Shown here one piece after another: positions 9,171 through 50,222 of a DNA stretch of 57,606 bases (its first letter is position 1; every line of letters begins with the position of its first letter). The position numbers were made by a program, and so were the translations under genes. The stretch is from an uncultured Clostridia bacterium (GTDB taxonomy: Bacteria; Bacillota; Clostridia; Oscillospirales; CAG-272). A model generated the notes under the pieces. It saw only the letters and a list, made by a program, of their open reading frames with translations, made no database searches and was not told where the DNA came from. The DNA lies in contig CALXUV010000009.1 of NCBI GenBank assembly GCA_944391815.1, positions 1 to 57,606 of the forward strand, written 5' to 3'.

Positions 9171-10108
9171 CACTTACTTTTTTGAAAAAAAGTAAGCAAA
9201 AACTTCCCGCTTTTTGAAAAAAAGCTTAGCAAAAACTTCCCGCTTTTTGAAAAAAAGCTTGGCAAAAACTTCTCTACATTGGTTTTGTTGAAATACTTTT
9301 AATTTGCGTAAAATTGTTCTTCAATCTCGCCCACAAATAGCAAAATCCACCTTAAACCTGACCGCGGAAAAACTTCTCTACATTGGATTTATTGAATTAC
9401 TTTTTATTTGCGTAAAATCACTGTTCAATCTCTCCCCCGCTTTTGAAAAAAGCTTAGCAAAAACTTCCCTACATTGGTTTTGTTGAAATACTTTTCATTT
9501 ACGTAAAATTAATGTTCAATCTCTCCCCCCGCTTTTTGAAAAAAGCTTGGCAAAAACTTCTCTACATTGGATTTATTGAATTACTTTTTATTTGCGTGAA
9601 ATTGTAGTTCAGTCTCTTTCAAAAACAACAAAGCTTGCCTCGATCCTGTTTGTGGGAAACTATTGTTAATATGATCCTTAAACAACAAAACTTATATCAA
9701 ATTCGTTTTACAAAAAACTTCTCTACATTGGTTTTGTGGGAAGACTTTTCATTTACGTAAAATTGTTCTTCAATCTCGCCCACAAATAGCAAAAACCACA
9801 TCAAACCTGACCGTGGGAAAACTTCTCTACATTGGTTTTGTGGAAATACTTTTCATTTACGTAAAATTAATGTTCAATCTCTCCCCTAAACAGCAAAAAC
9901 CACATCAAACCCGATCGCGAGAAAAGTTTTTTGCCTACTTTTTTTCAAAAAAGTAGGAGCTTGGCAAAAACTTCTCTACATTGGATTTGTGGAAAGGCTT
10001 ATTATTTACGTAAAATTGTTGTTAAGTCTAACCCACAAACGATGAAACCTACTTCAAACCTGATCGCAAGAAAAGTTTTTGAAAAAAAAAAAAAAAAAAG
10101 CGGGGGGG
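9171..10108 (+). repeat. Repeat cluster 1 (about 7 units, forward)
   Basis: The whole gap between the cyclo-ligase gene and mltG is filled by repeat units. Each unit starts with an ACTTCTCTACATTGG-like block, continues through TTTGCGTAAAAT and GTTCAATCT blocks and ends in GACCGCGAGAAAAG. Short hairpins of the AGCTTTTTTC/GAAAAAAGC and CCTAC/GTAGG types separate the units. A variant stretch at 9591-9725 is almost identical to the reverse complement of 33763-33899. The cluster ends in an 18-A run followed by eight Gs (10082-10107). No coding region is credible inside. Confidence 0.9.
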
Positions 10109-10119
10109 GAGAAGTAATA

Positions 10120-10746
10120 TTATTTTCTCACGTTATTGACAGTTAATACCGACTTTTCAGTGACAATTATATCCACCGCAACATCGTATCTTCCGCGCGG
10201 AAGCCGTGTACTGCTCATCATTTCTGTATAGACGACACCTACACGCACAGTATTTGTGCCCGACAGGAATCTGTCGTAATATCCTTTGCCGTAACCTAAA
10301 CGGTAGCCCTCTGAATCGAACGACACTGCCGGAATTATGCAGACAGATTGCCCTTGCTCATGAAAAACCGGGGCGTTTTTGGACGGCTCCATTATGGAAA
10401 ATTTTCCTTTTTCGAGCGCTTCGCCTTTGCGCACCAAACGGAACTCCATCTGACCGTTTCCCGCAAGACACGCCGGTAAATAAAGGTTTTTGCCTTGTTC
10501 AAGCAGATATTTGTTAAAATCCGTCACTCCTACTTCATATTTCAGCGGAGAAAAGCTGAGTACGTCATCAGCGTATCTTACACACATAAGCGTCATAAGC
10601 CTTTTGCAAATTGCGCTGTCCATTTCAGCTTTCCGCTCCTGCGGTATGCCTCGCCTTTTAACCAGCAACTCTTCCCTCAGCACATTTTTTTCCTGACGTA
10701 TGTTTCTTTTTGAGCCGCTTTCGCTATTATTTTGCCATGATCTCAT
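10120..10746 (-). CDS. 5-formyltetrahydrofolate cyclo-ligase
   Basis: ATP-dependent enzyme that returns 5-formyl-THF to the active folate pool (5,10-methenyl-THF). The family signature GYRLGYGKGYYDRFL is clear at about residue 150-164 and the N-terminal LREELLVKRRGI helix at 23-34 is typical. The longest frame gives 208 aa, but its first 21 residues lack a good ribosome binding site; a GTG at 10683 with AGGA upstream would give a more usual length of about 187 aa. The long form overlaps the DJ-1 gene by 20 bases. The two genes probably share a transcript. Confidence 0.9.
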   Translation of the reverse strand: MRSWQNNSESGSKRNIRQEKNVLREELLVKRRGIPQERKAEMDSAICKRLMTLMCVRYADDVLSFSPLKYEVGVTDFNKYLLEQGKNLYLPACLAGNGQMEFRLVRKGEALEKGKFSIMEPSKNAPVFHEQGQSVCIIPAVSFDSEGYRLGYGKGYYDRFLSGTNTVRVGVVYTEMMSSTRLPRGRYDVAVDIIVTEKSVLTVNNVRK

Positions 10747-11275
10747 TTTTTATTTTTTCTGCCCTTTCTTTTCCGCAAAGCTCCCCGATTATTGCATAAG
10801 CAAAATCAAGCGCTGCACCCGCTCCCTTTGCGGTTATTACTTTCCCGTCAACAACACATTTTTCGCCGGTCGCCTGCGCTCCTTCAAGATAATCTTCAAA
10901 TCCCGGGTAACATGTTGCCTTCTTGCCTTTCAGATAACCGCATTTACCGAGCACTGACGGAGCAGCGCATATTGCCGACAGGTACTTTCCGTTTTCAAAT
11001 GCCGTTTTCAGTGCCGTAAGAACCTCTTTGCTTTTTTCAAGATTCTTTGTTCCCGGCATTCCGCCCGGAAGTATTATCATCTCCGCTTTTTCCGGTTTGT
11101 ATTCGCTGTCAGTAACTCTGAGGTCTGCTTTTATTGTTATTCCATGAGAACCGCTGACGCTCATTTCGTCGTTTACTGAAACCGTTTTTACTTCAAGTCC
11201 TGCTCTGCGGCACATGTCGAGCGGTACTATCATCTCGGTTTCCTCGAATCCTGTTGCTAAAAAAATATATATCAT
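10727..11275 (-). CDS. DJ-1/ThiJ/PfpI-family protein
   Basis: 182 aa cytosolic protein of the DJ-1 superfamily. The nucleophile-elbow Cys is in SAICAAPSVLGK (about residue 101) and the conserved Glu is near residue 15 in FEETEM. Members include glyoxalase/deglycase-like and chaperone-like proteins; activity cannot be assigned here. The conserved position directly before a folate cyclo-ligase is seen in other Clostridia by memory, without known functional reason. Repeat cluster 2 lies immediately upstream, so the promoter is either in the cluster or beyond ftsK. Confidence 0.9.
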   Translation of the reverse strand: MIYIFLATGFEETEMIVPLDMCRRAGLEVKTVSVNDEMSVSGSHGITIKADLRVTDSEYKPEKAEMIILPGGMPGTKNLEKSKEVLTALKTAFENGKYLSAICAAPSVLGKCGYLKGKKATCYPGFEDYLEGAQATGEKCVVDGKVITAKGAGAALDFAYAIIGELCGKERAEKIKNEIMAK

Positions 11276-11285
11276 TTCTTTCTCC

Positions 11286-11645
11286 TCCCCCCGCTTTTTG
11301 TAAAAAAGTGGGGCAAAAACTTCCCGCTTTTTGAAAAAAGCTTGGCAAAAACTTCTCTACATTGGATTTGTAGAAACACCTTTAATTTGAGTGAAATCGT
11401 TGTTCAATCTCTTCCCCCACTTTTTGTAAAAAGTGGGACAAAAACTTTTCTACACTGGGTTTGTGGGAATATTTTTAATCTGCATGAAATCGTTGTTTAT
11501 TCTTTCGACAAAACAGCAAAAACCTACTTCAAACCCGATCGCGTGAAAAGTTTTTTGCCTACTTTTTTTCAAAAAAGTAGGAGCTTTTTTCAAAAAGCGG
11601 AGAAAAGTTTTTTGCCTACTTTTTTTCAAAAAAGTAGGAGAAAAT
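11286..11645 (+). repeat. Repeat cluster 2 (about 2 units, forward)
   Basis: Between the DJ-1 gene and ftsK. Contains two bodies (starting near 11345 and 11435) and several linking hairpins of three head types: CCCAC/GTGGG, CCTAC/GTAGG and the AGC/GCGG type. The stretch from 11545 to 11645 is almost only hairpins. No gene is supported inside. Confidence 0.88.
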
Positions 11646-11650
11646 TTGCA

Positions 11651-14600
11651 CTATTTTGACTGATTATTTTTCCATTCAAGATAGCCTTGCATATCTATAA
11701 GAACGTCACGGGGCTTACTTCCGTTGCTTTTTGATATAAATCCGAGATCTTCAAGCTTTTCCGTAATGTTGGAAGCACGGTTGAAACCTATTTTCAAATG
11801 TCGCTGTATTATATTTGTAGTGGCTTTTCCCATGTTGATCACCAGCTCCGCCGCCTTGCAAAGGTACTCAAAATCAACATCCGCACAGTCGATAGCCACC
11901 TCGTCGTCAGTTGCCGCTTTCTTTCCGGCTTTGTTCATCTTGTCTACTTCGCTTTCAAGACTGTACATAACCTCGGGATCGAACTGCGCATTACCGTTAT
12001 AATCAATGATGAACTTCGTCACACGCTTAATTTCGCTTCCGCTGACGAACGCTCCCTGTAAACGCTGCTGTGTTCCGCCGGTCGGATGATACAGCATATC
12101 ACCTTTTCCCAGCAGTTTTTCTGCTCCCGTGTTACCCAGTATTATCCTTGAGTCCTGCGGAGACGATACCTTGAACGAAATTCTCGCCGGAATATTAGCT
12201 TTGATAAGACCTGTAATTATATCAACCGAAGGTCTTTGCGTTCCGATAAGCAGGTACATTCCGCAAGCTCTTGCCTTCGCCGCAAGGCGGTTGATTTTTT
12301 CCTCTACGTGCTCCCTTACCTGAAGCATCAGATCCGCAAGCTCATCTATGACGATTATAATTCTCGGCATATATTCGAAATCCGGGTTTTCGTCTTTCAT
12401 TGCGTAATACTCATCGGTATTTCTCGCCATAACTTTATCGAAAAGCTCGTACCTGCGCTCCATTTCCGCTACCGCCCAGCTGAGCGCCGCCGCTGCCCTC
12501 TGCGGATCATCTATAACCGGCATTATAAGGTGCGGCAGGTTAGAGTAAATATTAAGTTCAACTCTTTTCGGGTCGATCAGTATCAGCTGAACCTCGTCAG
12601 GCGTCGCCCGGAACAAAAGGCTGAGAAGCATGCAGTTAATGGCAACCGATTTACCCGATTTTGTCTGACCGGCTATCAGCACGTGCGGCATCTCGTCTAT
12701 ATCCATAAACACCGGCTTTCCCGTTACCGTAAGTCCGACGCAAACAGTTGTTTTGTTTTTCGCCTCGATAAACTCACGGTTCTCAACAAGCGAACGGAGC
12801 GAAACGGTTGTGACCTTTTTATTCGGTACCTCAACACCGACAACCGCTTTTCCGGGAACCGGAGCTATTCTCACTCCCTCAGACTGCATTGCAAGCGAAA
12901 TATCGTCTGTAAGGGCTGTAAGCGCCTTTATTTTTACACCCGGACCGGGCACTATATCATGTCTTGTAATGGTCGGACCTATGCTGTATCCCGCAAGAGT
13001 TGCGTCGACGTGGAAGCTCGAAATTTTATCCATAAGCTTCCTCTGCACCTCTGCAATTTCCTCTTCGGTGGTAATATTCGCCATTGGCTGTCTTTCAAGA
13101 AGATCGCTTCTCGGATACACGTAGTCCGGGTATCTGAGCCGCCTGTGTCCGTAATACACCTGTCCGGATTCATCGTAGTCGTCGTCCGTTTCTTCTTCGT
13201 CCTCATCGGCTACGTCTTCAACTGCTGCTGCGGTTTTCTGCTGATTGTAGTTTCCGGCATCTGCCGCAGAAGAAAAGGGAGTACCGGCCGACTGCGGCTG
13301 TGTTATTTTACTTTCAGTCTTCATTTTTACAGCGTTTTTCAAAACGTTTTCCGCTGTACTTTGGGAGGGCGGTGCCGAAACTTCTGCGCTTTCATAGGAA
13401 TTTGCTCCTGTTGCTACTCCTCCGGAAAAAGGAACCGATCTTTGCGTGTCAGCCCCGCCTGCCTGCACTGCCGGGCGACTCACTTGGCGGGAGTCAGTTT
13501 CTCCACTTCCCGTGTACTGAAAAAAACCGTTGCCTGCTCCCGTGTTACCCGAAAGGAAATCTGCCGCGCTTTCTTTTACCGGAACAAATCCCTGCGGACA
13601 CTGCACCGGATTTTTATCCGGCACGGCGTACATCTCTGCTTCAGCTTGCGTCTTATTGGTAACCGTATCCGGTGGCACTGACGACCCTGACACATGTCTT
13701 ATAAAGACGTCGTCTTCGTCGTCTTCAGCCGCTTTACCGGGAGCTGACTTGGACTCAGGCTCTCTTCTGGCTACATCGCACGCGATATAACTCTGAGGAA
13801 TTTCCTTACCTTCCCTGCGCTCATGGGAGTTCATACTCGTGAAGGGATCCGCAAAAGGCGAATACGCTCTTGGAGGCTCGGAACTTTTCGTCTGATTTTT
13901 TGAAACAGTTTTTTCTGTTTTTTTGCCTGCACTGCCTTTTTTGAAATCCTCAAAAGATATAAAAGGGTTGGCAAACGGAGAATACGCTCTCGGCATTTCC
14001 GTTTCTTCATTTCGTTTTTTTCCGTAGCTTGGAGCAGGCTTTTGACTACGCACTTCCTGCGGCGCCGTTTTTACGGGAGGATTTACGGGCGGCTCATAAT
14101 AAATATCGTTTGTTACCTTTCTGCCGACCGAAAAATCGACTCCGAAAGGATCACGTTCCGAGTCATCAAAAGCTGATAACGGCGACTCTGCGGGACTTTC
14201 TTCGTCATCTTCGTCTGCGTCGAAATCCTTGGTTACAAAAACACCGGGCTTCTCAAAATCAAAAAAGCCTACGTCGCTCGGTCTCAGATCTTTTTTGCGT
14301 TTCTGCGACACTGTTTCCGGCATATCGTTCTGACTCTCCGGCACACGGAGAGCAAGAGACGTATCTACTTTCATAGGTCTGTACTGTTCCTGAACCTGAG
14401 TCTGACGCACTTTCGGTTCCTCCTGCACCGGAGTATTTTTTACAGTTGAATTTGCCTCCTCTGCCGCCGCACGCTTACCCGAAAGCTTGTCAAAAATCAG
14501 TTTGTAAAGTCCCGATTTTCCCAGTCCCGGCAAAAAACAGAATATAACGACAACTGCAAGAGAGCTCAGAACAGCCGCCATAATCTGACCGAAAAGCAGA

Positions 14601-15076
14601 GTAAAAAGTTTAGCAAAAACGCTGCCAATAACTCCGCCACCCTCTCCGGCAATGCCGTCGGAATAAAATTCCGGTATGGAAAAAGAGACTTCTTTCATTG
14701 TTCCGTAGGCAAAGAGCGAGTAAAGTGACGACACAAGGACGCAAAAAACGCCGAGCATTATCCATTTGAAAACAAGAGTATTTTTTCTTGACAAATCACG
14801 GTAGAAAAAGGAAACGGCAAGCATGCCGAGAGGCAGCAAAAAACAAAAAGGGCCTAAAATTCCACGAAAAAATCCGCATACAAAACTTCCGAAAGCGCCC
14901 GTCCTTTCGCCGAGAACAAGACAAGTGAGAATCAGAAGCGAAACGGCAAGCAAAGCTACGGCTATAATTATGTCGGCGGCGCCGCTGTCGGTACTGCGGC
15001 GTTTTTTTACCATTGCTGCGGGCTTACCCGCATGAGACTGAATATTTTTCTTCGGTAGTGTTTTCTTTCTGTTCAT
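11651..15076 (-). CDS. ftsK: FtsK/SpoIIIE-family DNA translocase, long linker
   Basis: 1141 aa. Moves chromosomal DNA through the closing division or sporulation septum. N-terminal residues 35-185 hold four hydrophobic segments. Residues 185-650 are a low-complexity acidic/Pro/Ser linker containing the duplicated motif PRAYSPFANPF/PRAYSPFADPF near 362 and 400. The RecA-like motor follows, with Walker A AGQTKSGKSVA near 805 and IDELADLM. A winged-helix gamma domain (about 1070-1135) would recognise polarity sequences. The start at 15076 has an AAAGGAT site. The protein is longer than typical SpoIIIE (about 790 aa), all of the excess being linker. FtsK and SpoIIIE cannot be separated by sequence alone. 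Confidence 0.95.
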   Translation of the reverse strand: MNRKKTLPKKNIQSHAGKPAAMVKKRRSTDSGAADIIIAVALLAVSLLILTCLVLGERTGAFGSFVCGFFRGILGPFCFLLPLGMLAVSFFYRDLSRKNTLVFKWIMLGVFCVLVSSLYSLFAYGTMKEVSFSIPEFYSDGIAGEGGGVIGSVFAKLFTLLFGQIMAAVLSSLAVVVIFCFLPGLGKSGLYKLIFDKLSGKRAAAEEANSTVKNTPVQEEPKVRQTQVQEQYRPMKVDTSLALRVPESQNDMPETVSQKRKKDLRPSDVGFFDFEKPGVFVTKDFDADEDDEESPAESPLSAFDDSERDPFGVDFSVGRKVTNDIYYEPPVNPPVKTAPQEVRSQKPAPSYGKKRNEETEMPRAYSPFANPFISFEDFKKGSAGKKTEKTVSKNQTKSSEPPRAYSPFADPFTSMNSHERREGKEIPQSYIACDVARREPESKSAPGKAAEDDEDDVFIRHVSGSSVPPDTVTNKTQAEAEMYAVPDKNPVQCPQGFVPVKESAADFLSGNTGAGNGFFQYTGSGETDSRQVSRPAVQAGGADTQRSVPFSGGVATGANSYESAEVSAPPSQSTAENVLKNAVKMKTESKITQPQSAGTPFSSAADAGNYNQQKTAAAVEDVADEDEEETDDDYDESGQVYYGHRRLRYPDYVYPRSDLLERQPMANITTEEEIAEVQRKLMDKISSFHVDATLAGYSIGPTITRHDIVPGPGVKIKALTALTDDISLAMQSEGVRIAPVPGKAVVGVEVPNKKVTTVSLRSLVENREFIEAKNKTTVCVGLTVTGKPVFMDIDEMPHVLIAGQTKSGKSVAINCMLLSLLFRATPDEVQLILIDPKRVELNIYSNLPHLIMPVIDDPQRAAAALSWAVAEMERRYELFDKVMARNTDEYYAMKDENPDFEYMPRIIIVIDELADLMLQVREHVEEKINRLAAKARACGMYLLIGTQRPSVDIITGLIKANIPARISFKVSSPQDSRIILGNTGAEKLLGKGDMLYHPTGGTQQRLQGAFVSGSEIKRVTKFIIDYNGNAQFDPEVMYSLESEVDKMNKAGKKAATDDEVAIDCADVDFEYLCKAAELVINMGKATTNIIQRHLKIGFNRASNITEKLEDLGFISKSNGSKPRDVLIDMQGYLEWKNNQSK

Positions 15077-15307
15077 CGGTATAATCCTTTCGCAAAATTT
15101 ACTTATCACCCGAGCCGACACAGGTAATAAGCAATATACCTGTTTAACCTGCTTTCGGAAAACAAAGTTTCTTTATGAAGCCGACTGATATAATCTGCTG
15201 CGGTGCAGAGAGTTTACCCTACTATTTTATAGGTAATCCTGAACTCTTACGGCAAAAACAGAACAAATATCAGCTTTTCCGGTGTTTCGGACAGCAATAC
15301 AATATAT

Positions 15308-15336
15308 AATATACCACTTATAATATATAATTACAA
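15308..15336 (-). promoter_or_regulatory. Probable promoter for ftsK
   Basis: On the minus strand TTGTAA (15336-15331) and TATATT (15313-15308) are 17 bases apart, about 230 bases before the ftsK start. The surrounding 60 bases are very A+T rich, which lowers specificity. The rest of the 15077-15442 gap shows no gene. Confidence 0.4.
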
Positions 15337-15442
15337 GGGAATTTTGAAAATTTTTCCTTAAAAAAATCGGCGTTAAATTTCCCGATCGTGAATAAGCCGA
15401 TTTTCGGGTGACATACTATTACCGAGGAAAGGAGTTACTCAA

Positions 15443-23255: not shown

Positions 23256-24262
23256 CTTTTTTTAAAAAAGCAATCAAAAACTTCCCGCTTTTTGAAAAAA
23301 GCTTGGCAAAAACTTCTCTACATTGGGTTTGCGGAAATGCTTATTATTTGCGTAAATTTGCTGTTAGAGCTTTCCTTCAAAACAACAAAACCTACTTCAA
23401 ACCTGACCGCGAGAAAAGTTTTTTGACTACTTTTTTTCAAAAAAGTAGGAGCTTGGCAAAAACTTCTCTACATTGGGTTTGTTGTAATGCTTATTATTTA
23501 CGTAAAAATGCTGTTCGACCTTTCCTTCAAAACAACAAAACCTACTTCAAACCTGACCGCGAGAAAAGTTTTTTGCCTACTTTTTTTCAAAAAAGTAGGA
23601 GCTTGGCAAAAACTTCTCTACATTGGCTTTGTTGTAATGCTTATTATTTGCGTAAAAATGCTGTTCGATCTCTTTCCAAAACAACAAACCTTACCTCGAA
23701 CCTTCTCTACAATTATTCAACTCAATTATTCAATATTTGTGTAAAATCATTGTCTGCCATCTCTCAAAAACAAAAGTTATTTATGCCAATACCTAATAAG
23801 ACCCCCGCTTTTTTAAAAGCGAGGGTCTTGTTTTTTATCAGAAAAAACTTCTCTCCCTACTTTTTTGTAAAAAAGTAGGCAAAAAACTTCTCTACACTTA
23901 GTTAGATGGAATAATTTAAATTTGTGTAAAACTGTCAGTCAATATCACCCAAAACGGCAAAACCACTTCGAACCTGACTCTGAGAAAAACTTTCTACATG
24001 GATTTGTTGAAAGGCTTATTATTTGCGTAAAATTGTTGTTAAGTCTAACCCACAAACAACAAAACACACTCAAACCTGACCGCGAGAAAAGCTTTTGCCA
24101 CCTACTTTTTTGAAAAAAAAGTAGGCAAAAAACTTCTCTACTTTGGATTTGTAGAAATGCTTATCATTTGCGCAAAAATGCTGTTCAATCTAACCCACAA
24201 ACAACAAAACACACTCAAACCTGACCGCGAGAAAAGTTTTTGCTAAGCTTTTTTCAAAAAGC
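23256..24262 (+). repeat. Repeat cluster 3 (about 6 units, forward)
   Basis: Three leading units repeat with an almost exact 151-base period (body starts near 23308, 23459 and 23610); three further, more diverged bodies start near 23885, 23988 and 24130. Linkers are CCTAC/GTAGG and AGC-type hairpins. Several reading frames run through the units only because the same sequence repeats in frame; they have no ribosome binding site and are not genes. The last linker abuts the stop codon of the heparinase-like gene. Confidence 0.9.
23800..23836 (+). terminator. Strong terminator within repeat cluster 3
   Basis: GACCCCCGCTTTT pairs with AAAAGCGAGGGTC (one mismatch) and is followed by TTGTTTTTT. It is unlike the linker hairpins in that it has a proper T-run outside the stem, so it may be the real terminator for plus-strand transcription from the cassette gene. 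Confidence 0.75.
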
Positions 24263-31593: not shown

Positions 31594-32466
31594 ATGACCG
31601 GCACCGATTTTTTCGCTTCTCTTGCTTCCGGCTCGAAAGCCAATTGCTACGTAATAAAAACCGCCGACACGGTTCTGTTAATTGACGCCGGTCTCTCTTT
31701 CAGGAAAACAAGCACAAGGCTTATGAGTCTCGGACTGACTCCGGATATGATCGACGCCGTTGTCATTACCCACGAGCACTGCGATCACACTGCAGGACTT
31801 CCCATGCTCGCCAAAAATATAAATGCACCTGTTTACATGACAGAAGCGTGCTATCTTTCTTACATACGCAGCAAGGGTTTCGACCTGCGCAACCGCATTA
31901 CGCAAATCGGTACTCAAAAGGAAATAAGGGTAAAAAGCAGTGTCATTGAAACATTTTCGGTGCCTCATGACAGCGCCGACTGCATAGCTCTGAAAATCAG
32001 CTCCGGAAGTCAGTGTTACGGAATTTGCACGGACACTCCGGTTCCTCCTCCTCCGGACTTTTTTCACGGTTGCTCAGCTGTGGCTGTTGAGTCAAATTAC
32101 GATCCGGAAATGCTTAAATGCGGAAGTTATCCGGAAAACCTCAAATACAGAATAATGTCTCGCTGCGGTCACATGTCAAACGACGGGGCGGCAATGTATG
32201 CCGCCGAGCTTGGAAACCGGGGCTGCTTACGCATAATGCTTTGCCACCTCAGTCTTGAAAACAACACTCCCGAAATTGCACGCCGGACTGTCGGAAGCCG
32301 TTACCGAGGTGAGTTGCTTTGCGCCGCTCCGGACAGCGTAACACTTTGCGCAGGCAACTTGTCAGATACGCATTTTTCAAAATCACAGGAAAAAGAAACA
32401 CAGACAAAAGAAATCACGCCGACGAAATTAACGGCAGAAGCCAGAGAGAGACTACTGCCATGCTGA
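31594..32466 (+). CDS. walJ: Metallo-beta-lactamase-fold hydrolase (WalJ/YycJ-like)
   Basis: 290 aa. SLASGSKANCYVI at the start and THEHCDHTAGLP (near residue 61) are hallmarks of the WalJ/YycJ group; DTPVPPPPDFF and later His residues complete the metal site. WalJ is a proposed 5'-3' nuclease linked to wall homeostasis or repair. The last 35-40 residues are a Lys/Thr-rich extension whose codons overlap the start of rlmH. The walRK two-component genes that often precede it are absent. Ribosome binding site GAAAGGAAAG. Confidence 0.88.
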   Translation: MTGTDFFASLASGSKANCYVIKTADTVLLIDAGLSFRKTSTRLMSLGLTPDMIDAVVITHEHCDHTAGLPMLAKNINAPVYMTEACYLSYIRSKGFDLRNRITQIGTQKEIRVKSSVIETFSVPHDSADCIALKISSGSQCYGICTDTPVPPPPDFFHGCSAVAVESNYDPEMLKCGSYPENLKYRIMSRCGHMSNDGAAMYAAELGNRGCLRIMLCHLSLENNTPEIARRTVGSRYRGELLCAAPDSVTLCAGNLSDTHFSKSQEKETQTKEITPTKLTAEARERLLPC

Positions 32467-32885
32467 ATGTAAAAATAGTTACAATAGGCGGACTCCGTGA
32501 AAGCTATTTGAGAGAAGCGGCGGCTGAGTACGAGAAGCGATGCAGACCTTATTGCAAGCTTTCGGTAATCGAACTCAAAAGCGAAACTGCACTTGCGGGT
32601 GCGCTCGAAGATAAAAATTACAAAATTGCACTCTGCGTTGAGGGCAAAGAACTATCTTCGCCCGAGCTTTCAGCTCTGATCGAAAAGGCTGCCGTACAGG
32701 GTGCCGGAGGTGTAACTTTCGTTATCGGCGGAGCAGACGGTCTTGACGAAAAAAGCAAACAGCTTTGCGATTTCCGTCTTTCTTTTTCAAAGATGACTTT
32801 TCCTCACCAGCTCATGCGTGTTATTCTGACCGAACAGCTTTACCGTGCTCTTAATATTTCTGCCGGCGGTCATTATCACCACTAA
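32460..32885 (+). CDS. rlmH: 23S rRNA pseudouridine-1915 N3-methyltransferase, short form
   Basis: 141 aa SPOUT-family methyltransferase acting on assembled 70S ribosomes. TIGGLRESYLREAAAEY at the start, FVIGGADGL, LSFSKMTFPHQLMRVIL and the terminal GGHYHH match the family. It is about 18 residues shorter than usual; the gap falls in the variable loop after IELKSE, not in the knotted SAM site. The ATG at 32460 overlaps the walJ stop codon (ATGCTGA), so translation is coupled; walJ-rlmH adjacency is seen in other Firmicutes. Repeat cluster 4 starts immediately after the stop. Confidence 0.93.
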   Translation: MLNVKIVTIGGLRESYLREAAAEYEKRCRPYCKLSVIELKSETALAGALEDKNYKIALCVEGKELSSPELSALIEKAAVQGAGGVTFVIGGADGLDEKSKQLCDFRLSFSKMTFPHQLMRVILTEQLYRALNISAGGHYHH

Positions 32886-32886
32886 C

Positions 32887-34118
32887 CCCCCCGCTTTTTG
32901 AAAAAAGCTTGGCAAAAACTTTTCTCGCAAATTAGTTTGAGAGAGATTTGCTGTTTTGGGAAGAGATTTAACAACGTTTTTTCTCAAATAAAAAGTATTT
33001 CAACAAATCCAATGTAGAGAAGTTTTTTGCCCCCCACTTTTTGTAAAAAGTGGGTCAAAAACATTTCTAGCAAACGAGTTAGAGATAAGTTTGATGTTTT
33101 GGGAAGAGATTTAACAACGTTTTTTCTCAAATAAAAAGTATTTCAACAAATCCAAAGTAGAGAAGTTTTTTGCTTACTTTTTTACAAAAAAGTAGGTGGC
33201 AAAAGCTTTTCTCGCGGTCAGGTTTGAGTGTGTTTTGTTGTTTGTGGGTTAGATTGAACAGCATTTTTGCGCAAATGATAAGCCTTTCCACAAATTCAAA
33301 GTAGAGAAGTTTTTTGCCTACTTTTTTTCAAAAAAGTAGGTGGCAAAAGCTTTTCTCGCGGTCAGGTTTGAAGTGTGTTTTTCTGTTTGTGGGTTAGATT
33401 GAACAGCATTTTTTCGCAAATAATAAGCCTTTCCACAAATCCAAAGCAGAGAAGTTTTTTGCTTACTTTTTTACAAAAAAGTAAGCCGCTTTTTGAAAAA
33501 AGCTTGGCAAAAACTTTTCTAGCAAACGAGTTAGAGATAAGTTTGATGTTTTGGGAAGAGATTTAACAACGTTTTTTCTCAAATAAAAAGTATTTCCACA
33601 AATCCAAAGTAGAGAAGTTTTTTGCCTACTTTTTTTCAAAAAAGTAGGTGGCAAAAACTTTTCTCGCGGTCAGGTTTGAGTGTGTTATGTTGTTTGTGGG
33701 TTAGATTGAACAGCATTTTTGCGCAAATGATAAGCATTTCTACAAATCCAAAGTAGAGAAGTTTTTTGTAAAACGAAATTGATATAAGTTTGTTGTTTAA
33801 GGATCATATTAACAATAGTTTCTCACAAACAGGATCGAGGCAAGCTTTGTTGTTTTTGAAAGAGACTGAACTACAATTTCACGCAAATTAAAAGTATATC
33901 CACAAATCCAATGTAGAGGAGTTTTTTGCCTACTTTTTTACAAAAAAGTAGGTGGCAAAAGCTTTTCTCGCAAATGAGTTTGAGAGAGATTTGCTGTTTT
34001 GGGAAGAGATTTAACAACGATTTTACACAAATAATAAATATTTCCACAAATCCAAAGCAGAGGAGTTTTTTGCCTACTTTTTTTCAAAAAAGTAGGAGCT
34101 TTTTTCAAAAAGCGGGAA
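32887..34118 (-). repeat. Repeat cluster 4 (about 8 units, reverse)
   Basis: Largest cluster, filling rlmH-mnmG. Bodies run on the minus strand and end at a GTAGAGAAG block near 33015, 33155, 33298, 33445, 33605, 33750, 33910 and 34060. All linker head types occur (AGC, CCCAC, CCTAC, CTTAC). The stretch 33763-33899 is the inverted partner of 9591-9725, with only about three differences by eye. The right end is within 15 bases of the mnmG start, so cluster sequence forms the mnmG leader. Confidence 0.92.
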
Positions 34119-42561: not shown

Positions 42562-42565
42562 TCAA

Positions 42566-42581: not shown

Positions 42582-42593
42582 AAAGGAAAGGTT

Positions 42594-43720: not shown

Positions 43721-44290
43721 TTATTTAATAAGCTCTCCGAAACACTTTCCGAAAGCACATGCGGCATTTGACTCATCGGTATCTATGTGCATTGCGAGTT
43801 TGAACTTTTCGCTTACTCTGATGACTACATCTCCAAGAACGGAAGTTCTCGGGCTTTCGATCTTAACGCTGACAATCTGACCGTTCTCAACACCGTAAGC
43901 CTCGGCATCGGCAGGAGTCATGTGTATGTGGCGTTTTGCAACTATAACACCGCTGTCAACGGTTATTTCACCTTCAGGTCCGACAATTTTAATTCCGGGT
44001 GTTCCTTCAAGATCTCCGCTTTCACGCAGAGGAGCGTCAACGCCAAGTGTACGGGCATCGGTATACGAAAGCTCTACCTGAGTATGCGGACGTACAGGAC
44101 CGAGAATTATTACGTTTGCTATTTCTTTTTTGGGTCCGACCAACTTTACTCTTTCCTCGCAGGCGAACTGTCCGGGCTGACTGAGATCCTTTTTGAATGT
44201 CAGGGTTGCGCCTTTTCCGAAAAGTTTTTCAAGATCTTCAGTAGAGAGATGTACATGTCTTGCCGAAGTTTCGACTAATATTTTTTCCAT
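43721..44290 (-). CDS. pduL: Phosphate propanoyltransferase (PduL-type)
   Basis: 189 aa. PduL enzymes interconvert acyl-CoA and acyl-phosphate and do not resemble classical Pta. The two duplicated metal-binding blocks are clear: ETSARHVHLS (residue 7) and AKRHIHMTP (near 118), and the HIDTDESNAA block near 167. No other pdu or microcompartment gene is in view and I see no N-terminal encapsulation helix, so a cytosolic acetate-forming phosphotransacetylase role is more likely (inference). A promoter at 44327-44354 precedes it. Confidence 0.92.
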   Translation of the reverse strand: MEKILVETSARHVHLSTEDLEKLFGKGATLTFKKDLSQPGQFACEERVKLVGPKKEIANVIILGPVRPHTQVELSYTDARTLGVDAPLRESGDLEGTPGIKIVGPEGEITVDSGVIVAKRHIHMTPADAEAYGVENGQIVSVKIESPRTSVLGDVVIRVSEKFKLAMHIDTDESNAACAFGKCFGELIK

Positions 44291-44326
44291 TTTATTTTTC
44301 CTTTCGTATAATAATCGTTTTTTCTC

Positions 44327-44355
44327 ATTATACTATATTTAAATGTAAAAGTAAA
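44327..44355 (-). promoter_or_regulatory. Probable promoter of pduL
   Basis: On the minus strand TATAAT at 44332-44327 with a TTTACT-like -35 about 17 bases upstream. Divergent from the protease gene that starts at 44416. Confidence 0.6.
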
Positions 44356-44415
44356 GGGAATAAGCAAAATATTTCAAATTTTGTTGCAAAAACTATACCG
44401 AAAGAGGAATAAGAA

Positions 44416-46596
44416 ATGCGGAAATCAAGCTCTTCAAATCTTAATATTGAAAATATCAGTGTAGCAAAAAATACAAAACGAAAAGAAGTCCGGCTATCAG
44501 AACCTTCTGCCGCTCCGCAAAACAGAAGAAAAACGGCGGCTTCGTCTGTTGTCAGCAATACAAAAAACAATTCCGTAGAAAAAAGAACCGGAAAAGAAAG
44601 CTCTCGGGCTGCAAAAAAAACAGAAAAAAATGCAGCCACGGAAAAACCAATGAAAAACGCAGCACAAAAAAACTCAGTGCGTAGCCAAAATACCGTAACT
44701 TCAGCTTCCGTGAAAAAAACGACAGCTTCATCAGGAAAAGCTCCATCCGCAAAAGACAAAGCAGACGACTACGAGGTAGCCGTAAGAAAAGTCGGCAGAC
44801 CGAGATCTTCTGAAAAACGCGTCAATAATATTTCCGGAAAATCCGGTAAACTTATGGGATCATCCGAAAAATCAGATGCAGTTACGGCAGAAAATCCGGT
44901 TAAAAAAAGAGGAAGACCACTTAGCGACAGCTCCGGAAAAACGGAGTCTGTCAAAAACGGCGCAGGAAAAACTGCCAAAACAAGAAACAAAACACTTATC
45001 AGCGACTCCACAAAACTTATGTCTGCCGAAAACGGCACAGGAAAAACTGCCAAAACAAGAAACAAAACACTTATCAACGACTCTGCAAAAACCATATCAC
45101 CTAAAAATGCTGTAGGAAAAACCGCCAAAATAAGAAACAAAACGCTTATCAGTGATTCCGCAAAAAATATGTCAGCTGAAAACGCCGTAGGAAAAACGGT
45201 AAAAAGAAGAATGCCGTCAGGAGGAAAACCGGGTAAAAAATGCACGATTTCCGATAGGTTCTGCTACCGTGATCCCGATCTCCCGATTGACTGCGAAGAC
45301 GCCGTAAAATCTTCTGCGGAAAACAAAACCGCCGTATCCGGCAAGCGTTCGGCGCATAAAAAGACCGAAGTGCAAAGCAAAAAACCCTCAGAACAAAGAG
45401 TAGCATCAAAACGAAATAAAATATCAGTTTCAGAAGCGTTTAACGTTACCGAAAACACCGACGATCTCACCCGCAAACGCGGAAGAAAGAAAAAAACCGA
45501 CTCCGAAAGTACGGAAATCGGTTTTATGGCGGCAGGCAAAAACATCGGAAATGACGGCGAATATGTTTCCGTTACGCCGAGAAACAACGACCCGACTATT
45601 CCGTCAAAACCAGGGATTGTCAAAAGTCCGAATCGCGCCTATCGGTTTTCCGAAATACTTCCGGACGGATATAATCCCGAGGATCCTGTAACCCCGAAAC
45701 GCGGAAGAAAGAAAAAAGTTTCAGCAAACTCGCTTACCGACTCGGTTGACTCAGCCGTAAATTTCGTTAACACGGAGTACAGCGGCTATATGGGGGTGTC
45801 ACCTCAAAACAGAGAGCAGGCAGGAACACAAGAAACAAGCTCAGTCGCCAAAAACGCCGCACCCGTATTTTATGCAGTAAGCGGAAAGGGTAAAAGCGAA
45901 GAGCAACAGAGCGAAAAAGATCCGTCCGAACCTCCGATCCCGGACAAATCGGTTTTGACCGAAAAGGACGGCGTAGTTATAAAAACAATAGTAATTGCAG
46001 GTCAGATTGAAGGGCATTCGCTTCTCCCGCAAGGGCAGAAAGCCACCCGTTACGAAGAACTGATTCCTCAGCTTGTGGAAATAGAGGAGAGTGAAAAAAT
46101 TACAGGTCTGCTGATGATACTGAACACCGTCGGAGGCGACGTTGAAGCAGGATTGGCGCTTTCCGAGATGATAGCCGGAATGAAAAAGCCGACTGCCTCG
46201 CTTGTTCTGGGAGGCGGACACTCGATAGGAATACCTCTGGCAGTATCGACGAAACGTTCGTTTATCGTACCGAGTGCTACGATGACTTTGCACCCTGTGA
46301 GAATTACCGGAATGGTGTTAAGCGCTCCGCAGACTTACGTTTATATGAACAGTATGCAGCAGCGCATAATTGACTTCACCTGCTCGCACTGTTCAATGAC
46401 TCCCGAACGTTTCAACACCCTGATGCTGGGCAGAGAAGAACTTTCCACCGATCTCGGCACTGTCCTTGACGGAAAAAGGGCTGTAAAGGAAGGGCTGATT
46501 GACACTCTCGGCGGCTTGTCCGATGCTATTTCCTTCCTCAAATCCCCCACTTTTTGTAAAAAGTGGGTCAAAAACTTTTCTCGCTGTCAGGTTTGA
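44416..46596 (+). CDS. ClpP/TepA-like serine protease with AT-hook-rich N-terminal region
   Basis: 726 aa. Residues 515-710 are a ClpP-class fold of the TepA (YmfB) group: GGGHSIGIPLA supplies Ser603, MTLHP supplies His626, and NTVGGDVEAGLALSEMI is conserved. Residues 1-480 are basic and disordered with four AT-hook-like cores, VGRPR (126), KRGRP (164), KRGRKKK (354) and KRGRKKK (428), plus three and a half 25-26-residue repeats beginning GKTAKTRNKTLI (182-263). TepA itself has no such extension. The last 17 residues (PTFCKKWVKNFSRCQV region) are encoded by repeat cluster 5. DNA association is inference. Confidence 0.85.
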   Translation: MRKSSSSNLNIENISVAKNTKRKEVRLSEPSAAPQNRRKTAASSVVSNTKNNSVEKRTGKESSRAAKKTEKNAATEKPMKNAAQKNSVRSQNTVTSASVKKTTASSGKAPSAKDKADDYEVAVRKVGRPRSSEKRVNNISGKSGKLMGSSEKSDAVTAENPVKKRGRPLSDSSGKTESVKNGAGKTAKTRNKTLISDSTKLMSAENGTGKTAKTRNKTLINDSAKTISPKNAVGKTAKIRNKTLISDSAKNMSAENAVGKTVKRRMPSGGKPGKKCTISDRFCYRDPDLPIDCEDAVKSSAENKTAVSGKRSAHKKTEVQSKKPSEQRVASKRNKISVSEAFNVTENTDDLTRKRGRKKKTDSESTEIGFMAAGKNIGNDGEYVSVTPRNNDPTIPSKPGIVKSPNRAYRFSEILPDGYNPEDPVTPKRGRKKKVSANSLTDSVDSAVNFVNTEYSGYMGVSPQNREQAGTQETSSVAKNAAPVFYAVSGKGKSEEQQSEKDPSEPPIPDKSVLTEKDGVVIKTIVIAGQIEGHSLLPQGQKATRYEELIPQLVEIEESEKITGLLMILNTVGGDVEAGLALSEMIAGMKKPTASLVLGGGHSIGIPLAVSTKRSFIVPSATMTLHPVRITGMVLSAPQTYVYMNSMQQRIIDFTCSHCSMTPERFNTLMLGREELSTDLGTVLDGKRAVKEGLIDTLGGLSDAISFLKSPTFCKKWVKNFSRCQV
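44945..45205 (+). repeat. 75-78-base tandem repeat inside the protease gene
   Basis: Three full copies and one partial copy encoding GKTAKTRNKTLISDS followed by a variable stretch. The reading frame is preserved in every copy, and the differences are mostly silent or conservative, so the repeat is translated. Confidence 0.85.
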
Positions 46597-47066
46597 GGTG
46601 GGTTTTGGTATTCGTGGGTCAAATCGAACAACAATTTTACACAAATAACAATCATTTCCACAAATCTATGTAGAGAAGTTTTTGCCCCCCACTTTTTGTA
46701 AAAAGTGGGTCAAAAACTTTTCTGGCTGTCAGGTTTGAGGTGGGTTTTGGTATTCGTGGGTCAAATCGAATAACAATTTTACGCAAATAACAATCATTTC
46801 CACAAATCTATGTAGAGAAGTTTTTGCCAAGCTCCTACTTTTTTGAAAAAAAGTAGGCAAAAAACTTTTCTTACAAAGGAGTTTTGGGGAGCTTTGTTGT
46901 TTCAGGGGAAAATTTGACAACGATTTTACTCAAATAATAAGCATTTCAACAAATCCAATGTAGAGAAGTTTTTGCCAAGCTTTTTTCAAAAAGCGGGAAG
47001 TTTTTGCCAAGCTTTTTTTCAAAAAGCGGGAAGTTTTTGCCGAGCTTTTTTCAAAAAGCGGGGGAG
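46546..47066 (-). repeat. Repeat cluster 5 (about 3 units, reverse)
   Basis: Lies between two convergent genes and overlaps both: its left hairpin (CCCACTTTTTGTAAAAAGTGGG) codes for the last residues of the protease, and its right AGC-type hairpin supplies the stop codon of the RNHCP gene. Bodies end near 46675, 46815 and 46960. The first two units are nearly identical to each other over about 130 bases. Three AGC-type linkers in a row (46976-47066) close the cluster. Confidence 0.9.
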
Positions 47067-47392
47067 ACGGTAAGTTTGATAAGAAGTGAAATGTCATCAG
47101 GCTGAACTTTAGCCATGTGTGCTGCCTTGTTACGCCGGACAGCTCCGCACTTTTCGCACTTACTGATAATTATATACCCCTTTTTGGGATCTGTCTCGAC
47201 TTTAACAGGGCGCAGAATTCCGCCGCAGTCAGAAGCCCGGTCGCCGGGATTGATATCAAGATGAAGGGAGCAAAGACAAAACGGGCAATGATTTCTTGAC
47301 GTATATCCGAGCGGCTCAACTTTTTTACCGCAGTTGACGCAGGTAAAACCGCTGTCGTTTTTTCTGAACCTTTTTTCATTTAAATTTTCCAT
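47051..47392 (-). CDS. RNHCP-domain zinc-ribbon protein
   Basis: 113 aa. Named for the RNHCP motif, visible as SRNHCPFC near residue 33. Four Cys pairs (FTCVNCG, HCPFCLC, one CGG and SKCEKCG) would hold two zinc ions. Function of the family is unknown; in some genomes the domain occurs next to translation genes. The last residues SPAF and the TGA stop come from a hairpin of repeat cluster 5, so the original C-terminus may have been replaced or extended. The start has an AGGAG site. Confidence 0.88.
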   Translation of the reverse strand: MENLNEKRFRKNDSGFTCVNCGKKVEPLGYTSRNHCPFCLCSLHLDINPGDRASDCGGILRPVKVETDPKKGYIIISKCEKCGAVRRNKAAHMAKVQPDDISLLIKLTVSPAF

Positions 47393-47584
47393 AAAATCTC
47401 CTCAATTTGTTTTTCAAAACAAAGTTTTATTTCAAGGCATGGCTGATTTACACCCAAAGTCAATTCATTTTGATCAACAAAACGCATTCCCGGCAAAGCA
47501 CGCTTTCTTTCATTACAATACGCACCAAAGCGGCTAATATTAACAGATTAGTAAAAAAATAATCATCCTGTCGCTACATTTTTT

Positions 47585-47612
47585 TGCTAATCTATTAGAG
47601 CGTCAATTAGCA
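47585..47612. promoter_or_regulatory. Inverted repeat upstream of the small membrane-protein gene
   Basis: TGCTAAT and ATTAGCA arms separated by 14 bases, about 35 bases before the ATG at 47649 and just before a TACTATA -10-like sequence. Possible operator or transcript hairpin; no regulator is recognised. Confidence 0.35.
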
Positions 47613-47648
47613 TTATTTACTATATAAAAGTTTTGAAAGGATAAGGCT

Positions 47649-47933
47649 ATGCTTAATAGAAAAGTCACTAAATGGTCGAGACTTGTTGTTTGCGTTCTGC
47701 TTGCTGTGTTAATGGTTTGCACACTCGGTCTGGCTGTTTTTGCCGAAGAAACCACAACAGAAGAAAAGTCGGCATTGGCAAAATGGTGGGAATCCTACAA
47801 TCAGTATATAGGCTACGGTGTTGCCGCTGTGCTCGCCGTTGTGATAGTTATCGTAATTTACTGGTGGATCCCCAAAAACCCCAAGAAAAAAGACGTTTCA
47901 AAGAAGAAAAAAGAACTTCCGAAAAAAAGCTGA
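47649..47933 (+). CDS. Small exported or membrane protein, basic tail
   Basis: 94 aa. A Lys/Arg N-terminus and hydrophobic segment (residues 12-32, ending in VFAEE) look like a signal peptide with an Ala-x-Ala-type site. A second hydrophobic segment (53-74) ends in WWIPKNPKKK, followed by a Lys-rich tail: a stop-transfer pattern giving a type I topology with about 20 external residues. GAAAGGAT ribosome binding site; a strong terminator follows directly. No homologue recognised. Its position between RNHCP and mnmE has no known meaning. Confidence 0.8.
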   Translation: MLNRKVTKWSRLVVCVLLAVLMVCTLGLAVFAEETTTEEKSALAKWWESYNQYIGYGVAAVLAVVIVIVIYWWIPKNPKKKDVSKKKKELPKKS

Positions 47934-47943
47934 ATGACTTTTT

Positions 47944-47967
47944 GCCCGGCATACGCCGGGCTTTTTT
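47944..47967 (+). terminator. Terminator after the small membrane-protein gene
   Basis: GCCCGGC/GCCGGGC with a 4-base loop and six T. Confidence 0.95.
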
Positions 47968-48135
47968 CTTTGTATTTTATTTTTGCAAATAAATTTCCGT
48001 AAAAATCCGGAAGTCAGGCGTAAATTCATTTAATTTTTTATCGGAAATTTCTGATTTGTTATATTTATGTTCAGAAGTAAAATCAGTTTTTTTCAGGCGC
48101 ATTTTTAACCGAAACTGTAAATTCGTTATAACGGT

Positions 48136-49527
48136 TTATTTTCCTACACAGAAGTTTCTGAAAATTTCCGCTGTCACGTCCTCGGAAACGGCACGTCCGT
48201 CCACCTCTCCGAGAGCCATTAACGCCTGTTCAAGGTCAAGTCCGCAGATATCGGCGCTCAGCCCCGACAGCAATGCTTCTTTTGCACGTTCCACCGACTC
48301 AAAAGCCCTGCAAAACGCCGAAAACTGCCTTGCATTCGCAACAACAGCCTCTCCGCTGTAATCTATCTCTCTTTCTACAAACTGCCTTTCTGCGACCATT
48401 TTAAGCTCTTCGATGCCTTCACCGTCAGCGCAGCTTATTTCAGCCGTTACCACACCGTCGCCAAGCAAACTTTTGAGCTTATCCACCGTTTCAGGCACCG
48501 CAATATCCTCTTTGTTGAAAACCGCAATTACAGGGATCCGTCTTTCTCTTGCCTCTGAAATAAGGCCTATTATCTCCTCGTCTTCGCTTCCGATCTCACC
48601 CGAAACGTCGAAAACCGCCAGCAAAAGCTCCGCTTCTCTTGCTTTCGCTCTTGCCCGTTCTATACCGATCATCTCAATTTCGTCACCGCTTTCACGTATT
48701 CCGGCAGTGTCCCAAAGTCTGAGAACCACCCTGCCCGCCTGAACTTTTTCCTCGATTACGTCTCTTGTCGTACCGGCTTTTGAAGTAACTATCGCCCGGT
48801 CCTCGCCGCAAAGCCTGTTCATAAGCGACGATTTGCCGGCGTTCGGCTTACCTATAATTGCGGTTTTCACTCCGTCGCTTACCGCCTTGCCGTGACGGTA
48901 TGTTTTAATGGTTTCCGAAAGCTTACTCTTTACCGTTTCAAGTTTGTCTGCTATCTCATCCGAAGTAAGTTCAGAAAGGTCCTCTTCCGGGTAGTCGATT
49001 TTTACATAAACAGCACTGAGCAGTCCCGATATTTCACGGTAAATTTCTTCTGACCGGCGTTTAAGCACGCCCTGTGTATGCGATACGCAAAGGCGCAGTT
49101 TTTCCTCGCTGTCCGCATCTATAAGCCCGATGACCGCTTCCGCCTCCGTAAGATCAATTTTTCCGTTTATAAAAGCCCGCTTGGTAAATTCTCCACGCTC
49201 AGCCGGCACTGCTCCGCAGTCGAAAGCAGTTTCAAGTACTCTTTGCGTAATCAAAATACCGCCGTGACAGCTTATCTCGACGGTATCTTCGCCCGTGTAG
49301 GAATGCGGATTCCGATAAATCACCGCTATACCGTCGTCTATTACATTACCCTGCGACACAATTCTGCCATAAACCGCACTGCCGGACTTTACCGATGAAA
49401 GAGCGCACCCTGAAACCGGAAAAAACATCTTTTCCGCTACCGTTATAGCTTTGTCGCCGGACAGTCGTATTACCGCAATGCCGCCCTTGCCGTAAGGCGT
49501 TGAAACCGCCGCTATTGTTCTGCTCAT
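48136..49527 (-). CDS. mnmE: tRNA modification GTPase MnmE
   Basis: 463 aa dimeric GTPase partnering MnmG in wobble-uridine modification. N-terminal folate-binding domain opens with TIAAVSTPYGKGGIAVIRLSG; G1 is GKPNAGKSSLMN (near residue 228), G3 DTAG and G4 NKED follow, and the protein ends in FCVGK with the catalytic Cys. No frameshift seen. The ATG at 49527 lacks a clear promoter: repeat cluster 6 starts about 17 bases upstream. The usual downstream partner mnmG is absent here (it lies at 34134 on the other strand). Confidence 0.97.
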   Translation of the reverse strand: MSRTIAAVSTPYGKGGIAVIRLSGDKAITVAEKMFFPVSGCALSSVKSGSAVYGRIVSQGNVIDDGIAVIYRNPHSYTGEDTVEISCHGGILITQRVLETAFDCGAVPAERGEFTKRAFINGKIDLTEAEAVIGLIDADSEEKLRLCVSHTQGVLKRRSEEIYREISGLLSAVYVKIDYPEEDLSELTSDEIADKLETVKSKLSETIKTYRHGKAVSDGVKTAIIGKPNAGKSSLMNRLCGEDRAIVTSKAGTTRDVIEEKVQAGRVVLRLWDTAGIRESGDEIEMIGIERARAKAREAELLLAVFDVSGEIGSEDEEIIGLISEARERRIPVIAVFNKEDIAVPETVDKLKSLLGDGVVTAEISCADGEGIEELKMVAERQFVEREIDYSGEAVVANARQFSAFCRAFESVERAKEALLSGLSADICGLDLEQALMALGEVDGRAVSEDVTAEIFRNFCVGK

Positions 49528-49543
49528 GTTTGACCTCTCTCCC

Positions 49544-50222
49544 CTACTTTTTTGAAAAAAAAAAAAAAAAAAACTTCTCTACATCGGATTTGTGGGGATA
49601 ATGATTATTTGAGTAAAAATATTGTTTGATTTGACCCACGAATACCAAAACCCACCTCAAACCTGACAGCCAGAAAAGTTTTTGACCCCCTTACTTTTTT
49701 GTAAAAAAATAAAAAAAAAACTTCTCAACATTGGATTTGTTGAAACACTTTTTATTTACGTAAAATCGCTGTTCAATTTCTCCCCAAAATGACAAAAACT
49801 CTACAAACCTGACCGCGAGAAAAATTCTCTACATTGAATTTGTTCAAATACCTTTTATTTGCGTAAAATTGCCGTTCAAATTCTCCACAAAACGACAAAA
49901 ACCTCTACAAACCTGACAGCAAAAAAGTTTTTGACCCCTTACTTTTTTGTAAAAAAGTAAGCAAAAAACTTCTCTACAAGGATTTCTGGGAATGGCTTTT
50001 ATTTGCGTAAAATGATTGTTCAATTTGACCCGCAAATACCAAAACCCACCTCAAACCTGACCGCGAGAAAACTTCTCAACATCGGATTTGTGGGAATATT
50101 CATTATCTGTGTAAAATCGTTATTCAATCTCTCCCCAAAACATCAAATCTCTCTCGAACTCGTTTGCGAGAAAAGTTTTTGCCAAGCTTTTTTCAAAAAG
50201 CGGGAAAAAGCGGGGGAAAAAG
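49544..50222 (+). repeat. Repeat cluster 6 (about 5 units, forward)
   Basis: Fills the jag-mnmE gap. Bodies start near 49573, 49720, 49830, 49970 and 50075. The leftmost linker has collapsed into an A run of about 19 (49558-49576). Further linkers are CTTAC/GTAAG and AGC types. The right end runs on as GGGAAAAAGCGGGGGAAAAAGCGG. Transcription of the jag operon into mnmE must pass through this cluster. Confidence 0.88.

Follow-up and report, generated by a model that had tools for sequence, protein, structure and literature searches.

Six gaps in a 57,606-nt stretch of DNA from an uncultured Clostridia bacterium (the window; part of the 2.35 Mb, 81-contig genome G000, hereafter the own genome) are filled with copies of one repeat, raising the question of which part of this repeat is conserved and what it might do there. 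The original prediction had described about 31 units of an unrecognised family, in which a body was joined by hairpin linkers. An iterated nhmmer search started from one unit returned 34 body matches at E ≤ 0.01, exactly in the six gaps named and close to the number foreseen; the six clusters total 4,737 bases or 8.2% of the window, in agreement with the earlier estimate of about 4.7 kb or 8 percent. The linkers are hairpins, as had been proposed; the ranking of the two parts, however, turned out to be the reverse in the genomes searched, where dozens share the hairpin and the tract downstream of it but have different sequence thereafter. With confidence and doubt in about equal parts, we propose that the element is a composite, non-coding, non-autonomous gene-end repeat of an uncultured Clostridia genus, similar to repetitive extragenic palindromes (REPs) and bacterial interspersed mosaic elements (BIMEs) and built on an A/T-rich triplex-type hairpin.

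Hairpin arm and downstream purine tract

The 5' pyrimidine arm of the hairpin is the parallel complement of a purine tract located 6-7 nt past the purine run of the stem (CTTTTCTTG with CAAAAGAAC). This rule holds through a series of variants, including TTTTTTG with AAAAAAC, TTTTCTG with AAAAGAC, TTTTCTTG with AAAAGAAC, TTTCTTTG with AAAGAAAC, TTTTCTTCG with AAAAGAAGC, TTTTTTCG with AAAAAAGC, and TTTTTCTTG with AAAAAGAAC. Using a separate hairpin finder on selected fetched loci from 29 genomes, we found an exact fit at 173 of 207 distinct sites (185 of 219 before the removal of sites read twice from overlapping loci), and at 166 of the 174 sites whose loop starts with G. Among the 173 rule-obeying sites, the spacer was 6 nt long at 136 and 7 nt long at 34, and fits outnumbered failures in 26 of the 29 genomes. 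On the G-loop strand of the own genome, 61 of 62 hairpins obeyed the rule, compared to 3 of 18 with another loop base; ten were not parsed. Counted by distinct type, 12 of 30 obeyed, whereas shuffling of the tracts gave a mean of 1.58 and a maximum of 8, with none of 20,000 shuffles reaching 12. Seventeen types were informative as to the kind of repeat, revealing seven exact mirror repeats and no direct repeat. The search pattern and the hairpin model R1 used below score arm and tract independently, with the spacing held roughly fixed.

A matched mirror purine tract is what a purine-motif (class II) intrastrand triplex needs (Holder et al. 2015, PMC4666352). The class II layout comprises a pyrimidine stem, a purine stem, and an antiparallel 3' purine tract forming A.A-T and G.G-C triplets, and the ITxF program defines it by stems of 6-15 nt and loops of 1-6 nt, with one mismatch allowed in stems of at least 7 nt (PMC4666352). 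Judged by this layout, the hairpin sites with a downstream purine tract fit exactly in the 173 cases given above and not in the rest. In an ITxF-like scan of the window (own implementation), 31 of 34 class II motifs fell inside the clusters, compared to an average of 1.9 and a maximum of 7 in 100 runs on resampled cluster DNA; many of the 31 carry one mismatch or a T in the third tract.

Distribution across genomes and position behind genes

The copy count suggested in the original prediction, run with one body as the query, revealed 66 places in the own genome; because several arrays sit at contig ends, genome copy counts are lower limits. A strict exact-pattern scan of genome contigs detected the body in one other species, the metagenome-assembled genome (MAG) uncultured Clostridia BRZ_AN__bin107. 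The repeat is not confined to the contig of the window, as copies lie on other G000 contigs and in this second MAG. Among the genomes searched, the body of about 113 nt was found only in the own species and its sister (G002); G005 gave a weak trace, limited to the first 44 nt of the body. A query of body plus hairpin matched 11 of 39 genomes, the own included, and outside G002 mainly the hairpin part aligned among the matches listed. One G005 match extends 44 nt into the body, where the body profile alone gives E 0.025. For G004 and G006, the apparent resemblance to the body lacked significance, as 136 and 808 of 1,000 shuffles, respectively, scored equally well. The hairpin, in turn, is widespread: model R1 matched 62 of 146 genomes of the family, the own included, in 41 of 71 genera (E ≤ 0.001). 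In the class, it matched 4 of 291 genomes at E ≤ 1e-5, i.e., the own and three from three other families. Counting both strands, the own genome has 92 hairpin matches, of which the window contributes 40; palindromic hairpins may count once per strand in all these counts. At most 46 candidates were scored per genome in the family search, 23 in the class search, and 150 in the own-genome count. The hairpin-tract pattern matched 27 of the 146 genomes, and among those listed six (G464, G470, G496, G502, G515, and G528) are chance matches without the present hairpin; another scan matched 4 of 391 genomes, including the own as well as G370 and G247, of which the latter two do not show the downstream tract. 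The hairpins are the conserved core, and the body looks like a recent addition.

We further analyzed where hairpins stand relative to genes at 40 loci from 14 genomes. In 33 loci, a same-strand stop codon lies within 400 nt upstream; in 12, its distance to the hairpin is -25 to 20 nt, and in four exactly 0. An opposite-strand stop at the other end of the hairpin is within 400 nt in 27 loci, and within -25 to 20 nt in a single one. Compared to a null of 10%, 12 of 33 corresponds to p 4e-5, and the sense versus opposite side to p 0.003. The placement typical of REPs, within about 20 bp of the 3' ends of open reading frames (ORFs), is thus present as an enrichment (12 of 40 loci) and not in every copy. 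Zero spacing between stop and hairpin was seen in G000, G002, G004, and G005 of this genus. As a separate observation, three similar consecutive genes of G004 (contig C24, locus L077, at 1532, 3086, and 4488) share one arrangement, in which the same hairpin adjoins the terminal TAA at 0 nt and more repeats come behind it; here, the hairpin may have been copied together with the gene.

Arrays, bodies, and folds in the window

The clusters, together with representative hairpins and a representative body, are as follows.

9171..10108, + strand: cluster 1, eight body matches (9264, 9368 half, 9459 half, 9552, 9649 partial, 9713, 9818, 9966) and hairpins; neighbours 5-formyltetrahydrofolate (5-FTHF) cyclo-ligase (-) and yceG (-), bodies antisense to both
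9173..9275, + strand: body-free tandem hairpin units of 32-33 nt
9528..9563, + strand: hairpin type HP2, GC-T5-GA-A5-GC TTGG C-A5-CTT, short stem; commonest single sequence among those listed
11286..11645, + strand: cluster 2, half body 11347-11417, body 11440-11553, and hairpins; flanked by ftsK (-, stop 11651) and pfpI (-)
23256..24262, + strand: cluster 3, seven body matches; ends 5 nt past the TGA stop of a heparinase-like gene (- strand)
23563..23599, - strand: hairpin type HP1, CCTAC-T6-GA-A6-GTAGG then C-A6-CTT, in class II triplex layout
About 23800-23829: a separate G+C-rich terminator-like hairpin in cluster 3
24128..24240, + strand: example of a full body, bounded by the inverted ends AAAAACTTCTC / GAGAAAAGTTTT; read in gene sense (reverse complement), it folds into a single long stem-loop with z -2.6
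32887..34118, - strand: cluster 4, nine body matches; starts right behind the TAA stop of ORF 32319-32885 (+), ends shortly upstream of the mnmG (+) start
46546..47066, - strand: cluster 5, three bodies and tandem 32-nt hairpin units; its part at 46546-46596 enters the 3' end of ORF 44416-46596 and supplies the last codons and the TGA stop
46546..46581, + strand: hairpin type HP3, CCCAC-T5-GT-A5-GTGGG T C-A5-CTT
46962..47062, - strand: body-free tandem hairpin units of 32-33 nt
49544..50222, + strand: cluster 6, five bodies; flanked by jag (-) and mnmE (-), end about 120 nt past the jag stop

The neighbours of the clusters, namely yceG, 5-formyltetrahydrofolate cyclo-ligase, pfpI, ftsK, the heparinase-like gene, mnmG, mnmE, and jag, are ordinary chromosomal genes. 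The placement had been described as intergenic, which does not fully apply to cluster 5, where the hairpin supplies the stop codon of the ORF it overlaps. In G000, bodies oppose both neighbours in nine of nine clusters that lie between co-directional ORFs.

Of the 34 bodies, 27 are near full length (spanning at least model positions 2-107 of 113), three are clean half-units (positions 1-71) that pass directly into a hairpin, and four are partial. Mean column identity among the 27 is 82%, and the order of segments given in the original prediction is correct. Tandem-repeat scores of up to 948 and a best body E-value of 2.4e-31 exclude chance as the source of the arrays. The body runs AAAAACTTCTCTACATTGG ... 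GACCGCGAGAAAAGTTTT; its two ends are inverted repeats, so that terminal inverted repeats, as expected of a miniature inverted-repeat transposable element (MITE), are present, and the outer helix pairs in 97.4% of cells (alignment A4, 30 body units chosen by us). Together with the body ends, the hairpin linkers form palindromes of about 44 nt. Three main hairpin types stand between bodies, HP1 (CCTAC-T6-G..-GTAGG), HP2 (GC-T5-G..-GC then TTGG), and HP3 (CCCAC-T5-G..-GTGGG); behind each comes C-An-CTT, with which the body ends. Some bodies are joined without a hairpin via a short GAGAAAACTTCTC-like joint, some hairpins are tandemly repeated without a body, and eight or nine truncated bodies of 78-82 nt each form a satellite of about 80 nt at the start of G000 contig C2 (L014, 1-692). 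The half-units, fused bodies, body-free hairpin runs, and this satellite suggest that the arrays change by local duplication and loss.

Turnover between species was visible within at most 1.5 kb either side of mnmG. Upstream of the gene, hairpins lie directly in front of it in G002, an inverted pair occurs in G006, and a single hairpin stands about 400 nt away in G005; G004 shows a weak partial match only, and no hairpin was found over this range in G001 or G003. Before mnmE, G000 has cluster 6, G005 one hairpin, and G002 none. The species thus differ through gain, loss, or replacement of hairpin sites. Beside mnmE, G002 (contig C35, L040) carries another tandem repeat, of about 36 nt and unlike the present one (CTTCCGGATTGGCAAAGCCGTTATCCGCCGTGTAAG).

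Folding was compared between strands for the units of alignment A4. All 30 units outperform their Markov controls when folded in gene sense (mean -26.5 vs. -18.5), compared to 24 of 30 for the other strand. With RIBOSUM scoring, the body alignment folds to -21.8, compared to -14.0 at best in 50 column shuffles, and 92.5% of cells pair in the body consensus, compared to 40-62% when slid. For the hairpin stem (21 sequences, 84.5% of cells paired), covariation reached 0.166 against 0.114 in shuffles, with only 1 of 500 as high; the body fold is compatible with the alignment, not proven by it, because compensatory changes were not found. RNAalifold with default scoring returned no structure for bodies on either strand nor for hairpin alignment A2, and is hence uninformative.

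That the family encodes no protein and is not a CRISPR was borne out. The 110-nt bodies are alike (82%) and the hairpins vary, which does not leave identical repeats with unique spacers, and tandem periods of 93 to 150 are not all multiples of three, as protein-coding repeats would require. A phage or plasmid origin was likewise rejected, as a 331-base piece of cluster 4 had no match in phage or plasmid collections. As for the family being unrecognised, no Rfam family matched the window at gathering threshold (weak matches far below it in cluster 4 were taken as chance), and the terms tried in the open PMC literature led to no description of it. Its position nevertheless resembles that of REP elements (PMC3733652), and its hairpin layout that of class II intrastrand triplex motifs (PMC4666352).

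Explanations for the repeat

By position, the element is REP/BIME-like, and by layout it is akin to class II intrastrand triplex motifs (PMC4666352), in an A/T-rich form. On this reading, its conserved core is an A/T-rich gene-end hairpin, followed 6-7 nt beyond the purine run by the mirror-partner purine tract. Single copies often sit just behind stop codons, oriented with the gene, and in the own genome and its sister inverted hairpin pairs enclose the 110-nt body, grown into tandem arrays by local duplication and loss. We infer that the core could fold and thereby form a barrier where genes end, on the DNA strand that transcription or replication lays open; purine-motif triplexes cannot form in RNA (PMC4666352). 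Arrays may additionally provide a chain of stem-loops in the gene-sense transcript. The effect would be to limit run-on transcription and 3' decay, and to make the locus prone to rearrangement. Whereas the copies, their distribution, the arm-tract rule, and the enrichment behind stops are observed, the triplex, the barrier, and the spread of copies are inferred from them. More tentatively, and with doubt prevailing, selection might have kept a matched third strand beside an A/T-rich gene-end hairpin in at least four families of this bacterial class, through a dozen variants. If true, this would be comparative evidence for a function of intrastrand DNA triplexes at bacterial gene ends. In many variants, the sequence changes together in the way that a third strand demands, and at a favoured position near genes, so that designed mutants could address whether such triplexes form and matter in living bacteria. 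For gut Clostridia MAGs, the family matters as an abundant repeat found at contig ends and able to terminate or lengthen reading frames.

The closest counterparts by layout are the PIT elements, BoxC, and TM_ECO (PMC4666352), which share the 5' pyrimidine stem, the purine stem, and the antiparallel 3' purine tract. Like the present hairpins, they are intergenic, occur in many copies and sometimes in inverted pairs, and they are tied to unstable loci. In contrast, those motifs are G/C-rich, and TM_ECO favours neither strand and is located upstream of ORFs more frequently, whereas the present hairpins are A/T-rich and enriched behind stops in gene sense; the present pairs can also enclose a 110-nt body and form arrays. 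The same paper notes that A/T-rich motifs make up a larger share in scrambled genomes and favours a role for the G/C-rich ones; for the best-studied motif, it reports stable triplex formation in vitro and, apart from an association with instability, no function (PMC4666352). With GTAG REPs and BIMEs (Di Nocera et al. 2013, PMC3733652), whose main text does not contain the word stem Clostrid, the element shares short extragenic palindromes close behind ORF 3' ends, the occasional supply of a stop codon, and the occurrence of dimers and clusters. It differs from them in being A/T-rich, in carrying a mirror-matched third tract, in lacking an unpaired GTAG tag, and in not standing beside the RAYT (REP-associated tyrosine transposase) genes seen. 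The own genus also contains GTAGGGGCGAAC-GTTCGCCC-like repeats, palindromic and in the same genomes; these, however, are G/C-rich, of different sequence, carry GTAG at one end, and lie in or near RAYT genes. Modular build is a feature of BOX and RUP repeats, and similar AAAGAAAGTA palindromes may occur in other phyla. The pneumococcal BOX and RUP are likewise small interspersed repeats of a Gram-positive chromosome (PMC3049150), compared here by description.

Several points weigh against a triplex-type gene-end repeat. At 34 of 207 sites the rule is broken, and failures equal or exceed fits in G490, G506, and G513; in addition, the training set of R1 consisted of hairpins obeying the rule. HP2 and HP3 offer five exact triplets, under the published minimum of six (PMC4666352), and the HP2 fold does not surpass that of shuffled sequences. 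PMC4666352 presents stable in vivo triplexes as unsupported by its data even where the motif is G/C-rich, and cites no terminator activity for that motif. Just 12 of 40 hairpins stand right at a stop, and seven have no same-strand stop within 400 nt upstream, at loci that we picked from the listed top matches and where genes are plain ORFs. In the sister G002, orientation was mixed among the six clusters seen (two antisense, three sense, and one convergent). Compensatory change in the body fold amounts to one pair, compared to 1.2 in shuffles, and stem covariation is no higher than with partners slid by -3 columns (0.168). Finally, no transposition event, target duplication, or expression was seen for the repeat.

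Spread as a MITE is unlikely. Here, the body and its inverted ends would be a miniature transposon, and the arrays would result from repeated insertion beside existing copies, consistent with the array before mnmE in G000 where the sister has no hairpin, and with the location of cluster 5 within the 3' end of an ORF. However, a search that covered Y1 transposases revealed no parent transposon with the body's ends, target duplications are not readable as the copies abut, no clean empty site was found, many units lack one end, and the hairpins seen in relatives, G002 excepted, occur without this body. We consider it improbable that the arrays are a selected regulatory RNA, whose long stem-loops control processing or termination at gene ends, with spread being secondary. 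The better folding of the gene-sense strand, its pairing well above the slid controls, and the uniform orientation in the own genome (9 of 9) fit such an RNA, whereas the lack of compensatory changes, the unrelated flanking genes, the differing presence between sister species, and the mixed orientation in G002 do not. Functionless minisatellite-like DNA, i.e., palindromes duplicating and converting by replication slippage and tolerated in gaps, would explain the eight or nine shortened units in L014 and the runs of 32-nt hairpin units. It is nonetheless improbable, the least favoured of the readings weighed here: slippage is not known to yield mirror-matched tracts, as found in 7 of 17 informative types against no direct repeat, and the enrichment just behind stops in gene sense also speaks against it.

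The mobility of REPs is attributed to RAYT transposases (PMC3733652), and the hairpins could accordingly be GTAG-tagged REPs of a family mobilised by a RAYT (Y1) transposase, with HP1 carrying GTAGG at its foot. We regard this as improbable. In its favour, the position just behind ORFs and the supply of stop codons match REPs (PMC3733652), RAYT-like genes occur in the own genome, and Y1 transposases matched in 9 of 16 hairpin-rich relatives. However, GTAG is paired within the HP1 stem and absent from HP2, so that no unpaired GTAG was found at a hairpin end. Moreover, 13 Y1 loci from relatives (nine RAYT-like and four IS200-like, sorted by eye) yielded no hairpin at E ≤ 0.01, the best E being 0.17. 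In the genus, one of nine RAYT loci has a hairpin, at a distance of 889 nt and beyond another open frame; several of these nine loci carry the GTAGGGGCGAAC-GTTCGCCC-like repeats in or near the gene instead. As the RAYT genes seen are not flanked by the present hairpin and GTAG is not unpaired, membership in a REP/RAYT system is not supported, and the genome's RAYT transposase is not the evident mover of the gene-end repeat. PF01797 detected RAYT in none of the seven genus genomes, which reflects a weak profile, because a profile from the proteins of eight relatives detected it in three of the seven. G000 contains RAYT-type gene pieces at six contig ends (the starts of C46, C37, C16, C25, C20, and C22; L167-L172), and the gene is probably multi-copy. 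GTAG-tagged G/C-rich repeats lie in or near some of these copies, indicating a REP/RAYT system in this uncultured Clostridia genus.

Further tandem repeats were observed in the window: a 42-nt repeat (14 codons) at 53971-54245 inside ORF 53691-55439, a 75-nt repeat of 3.5 copies at 44952-45211 within ORF 44416-46596, and short repeats with periods of 49 nt and 24-25 nt between ORFs at 55489-55874.

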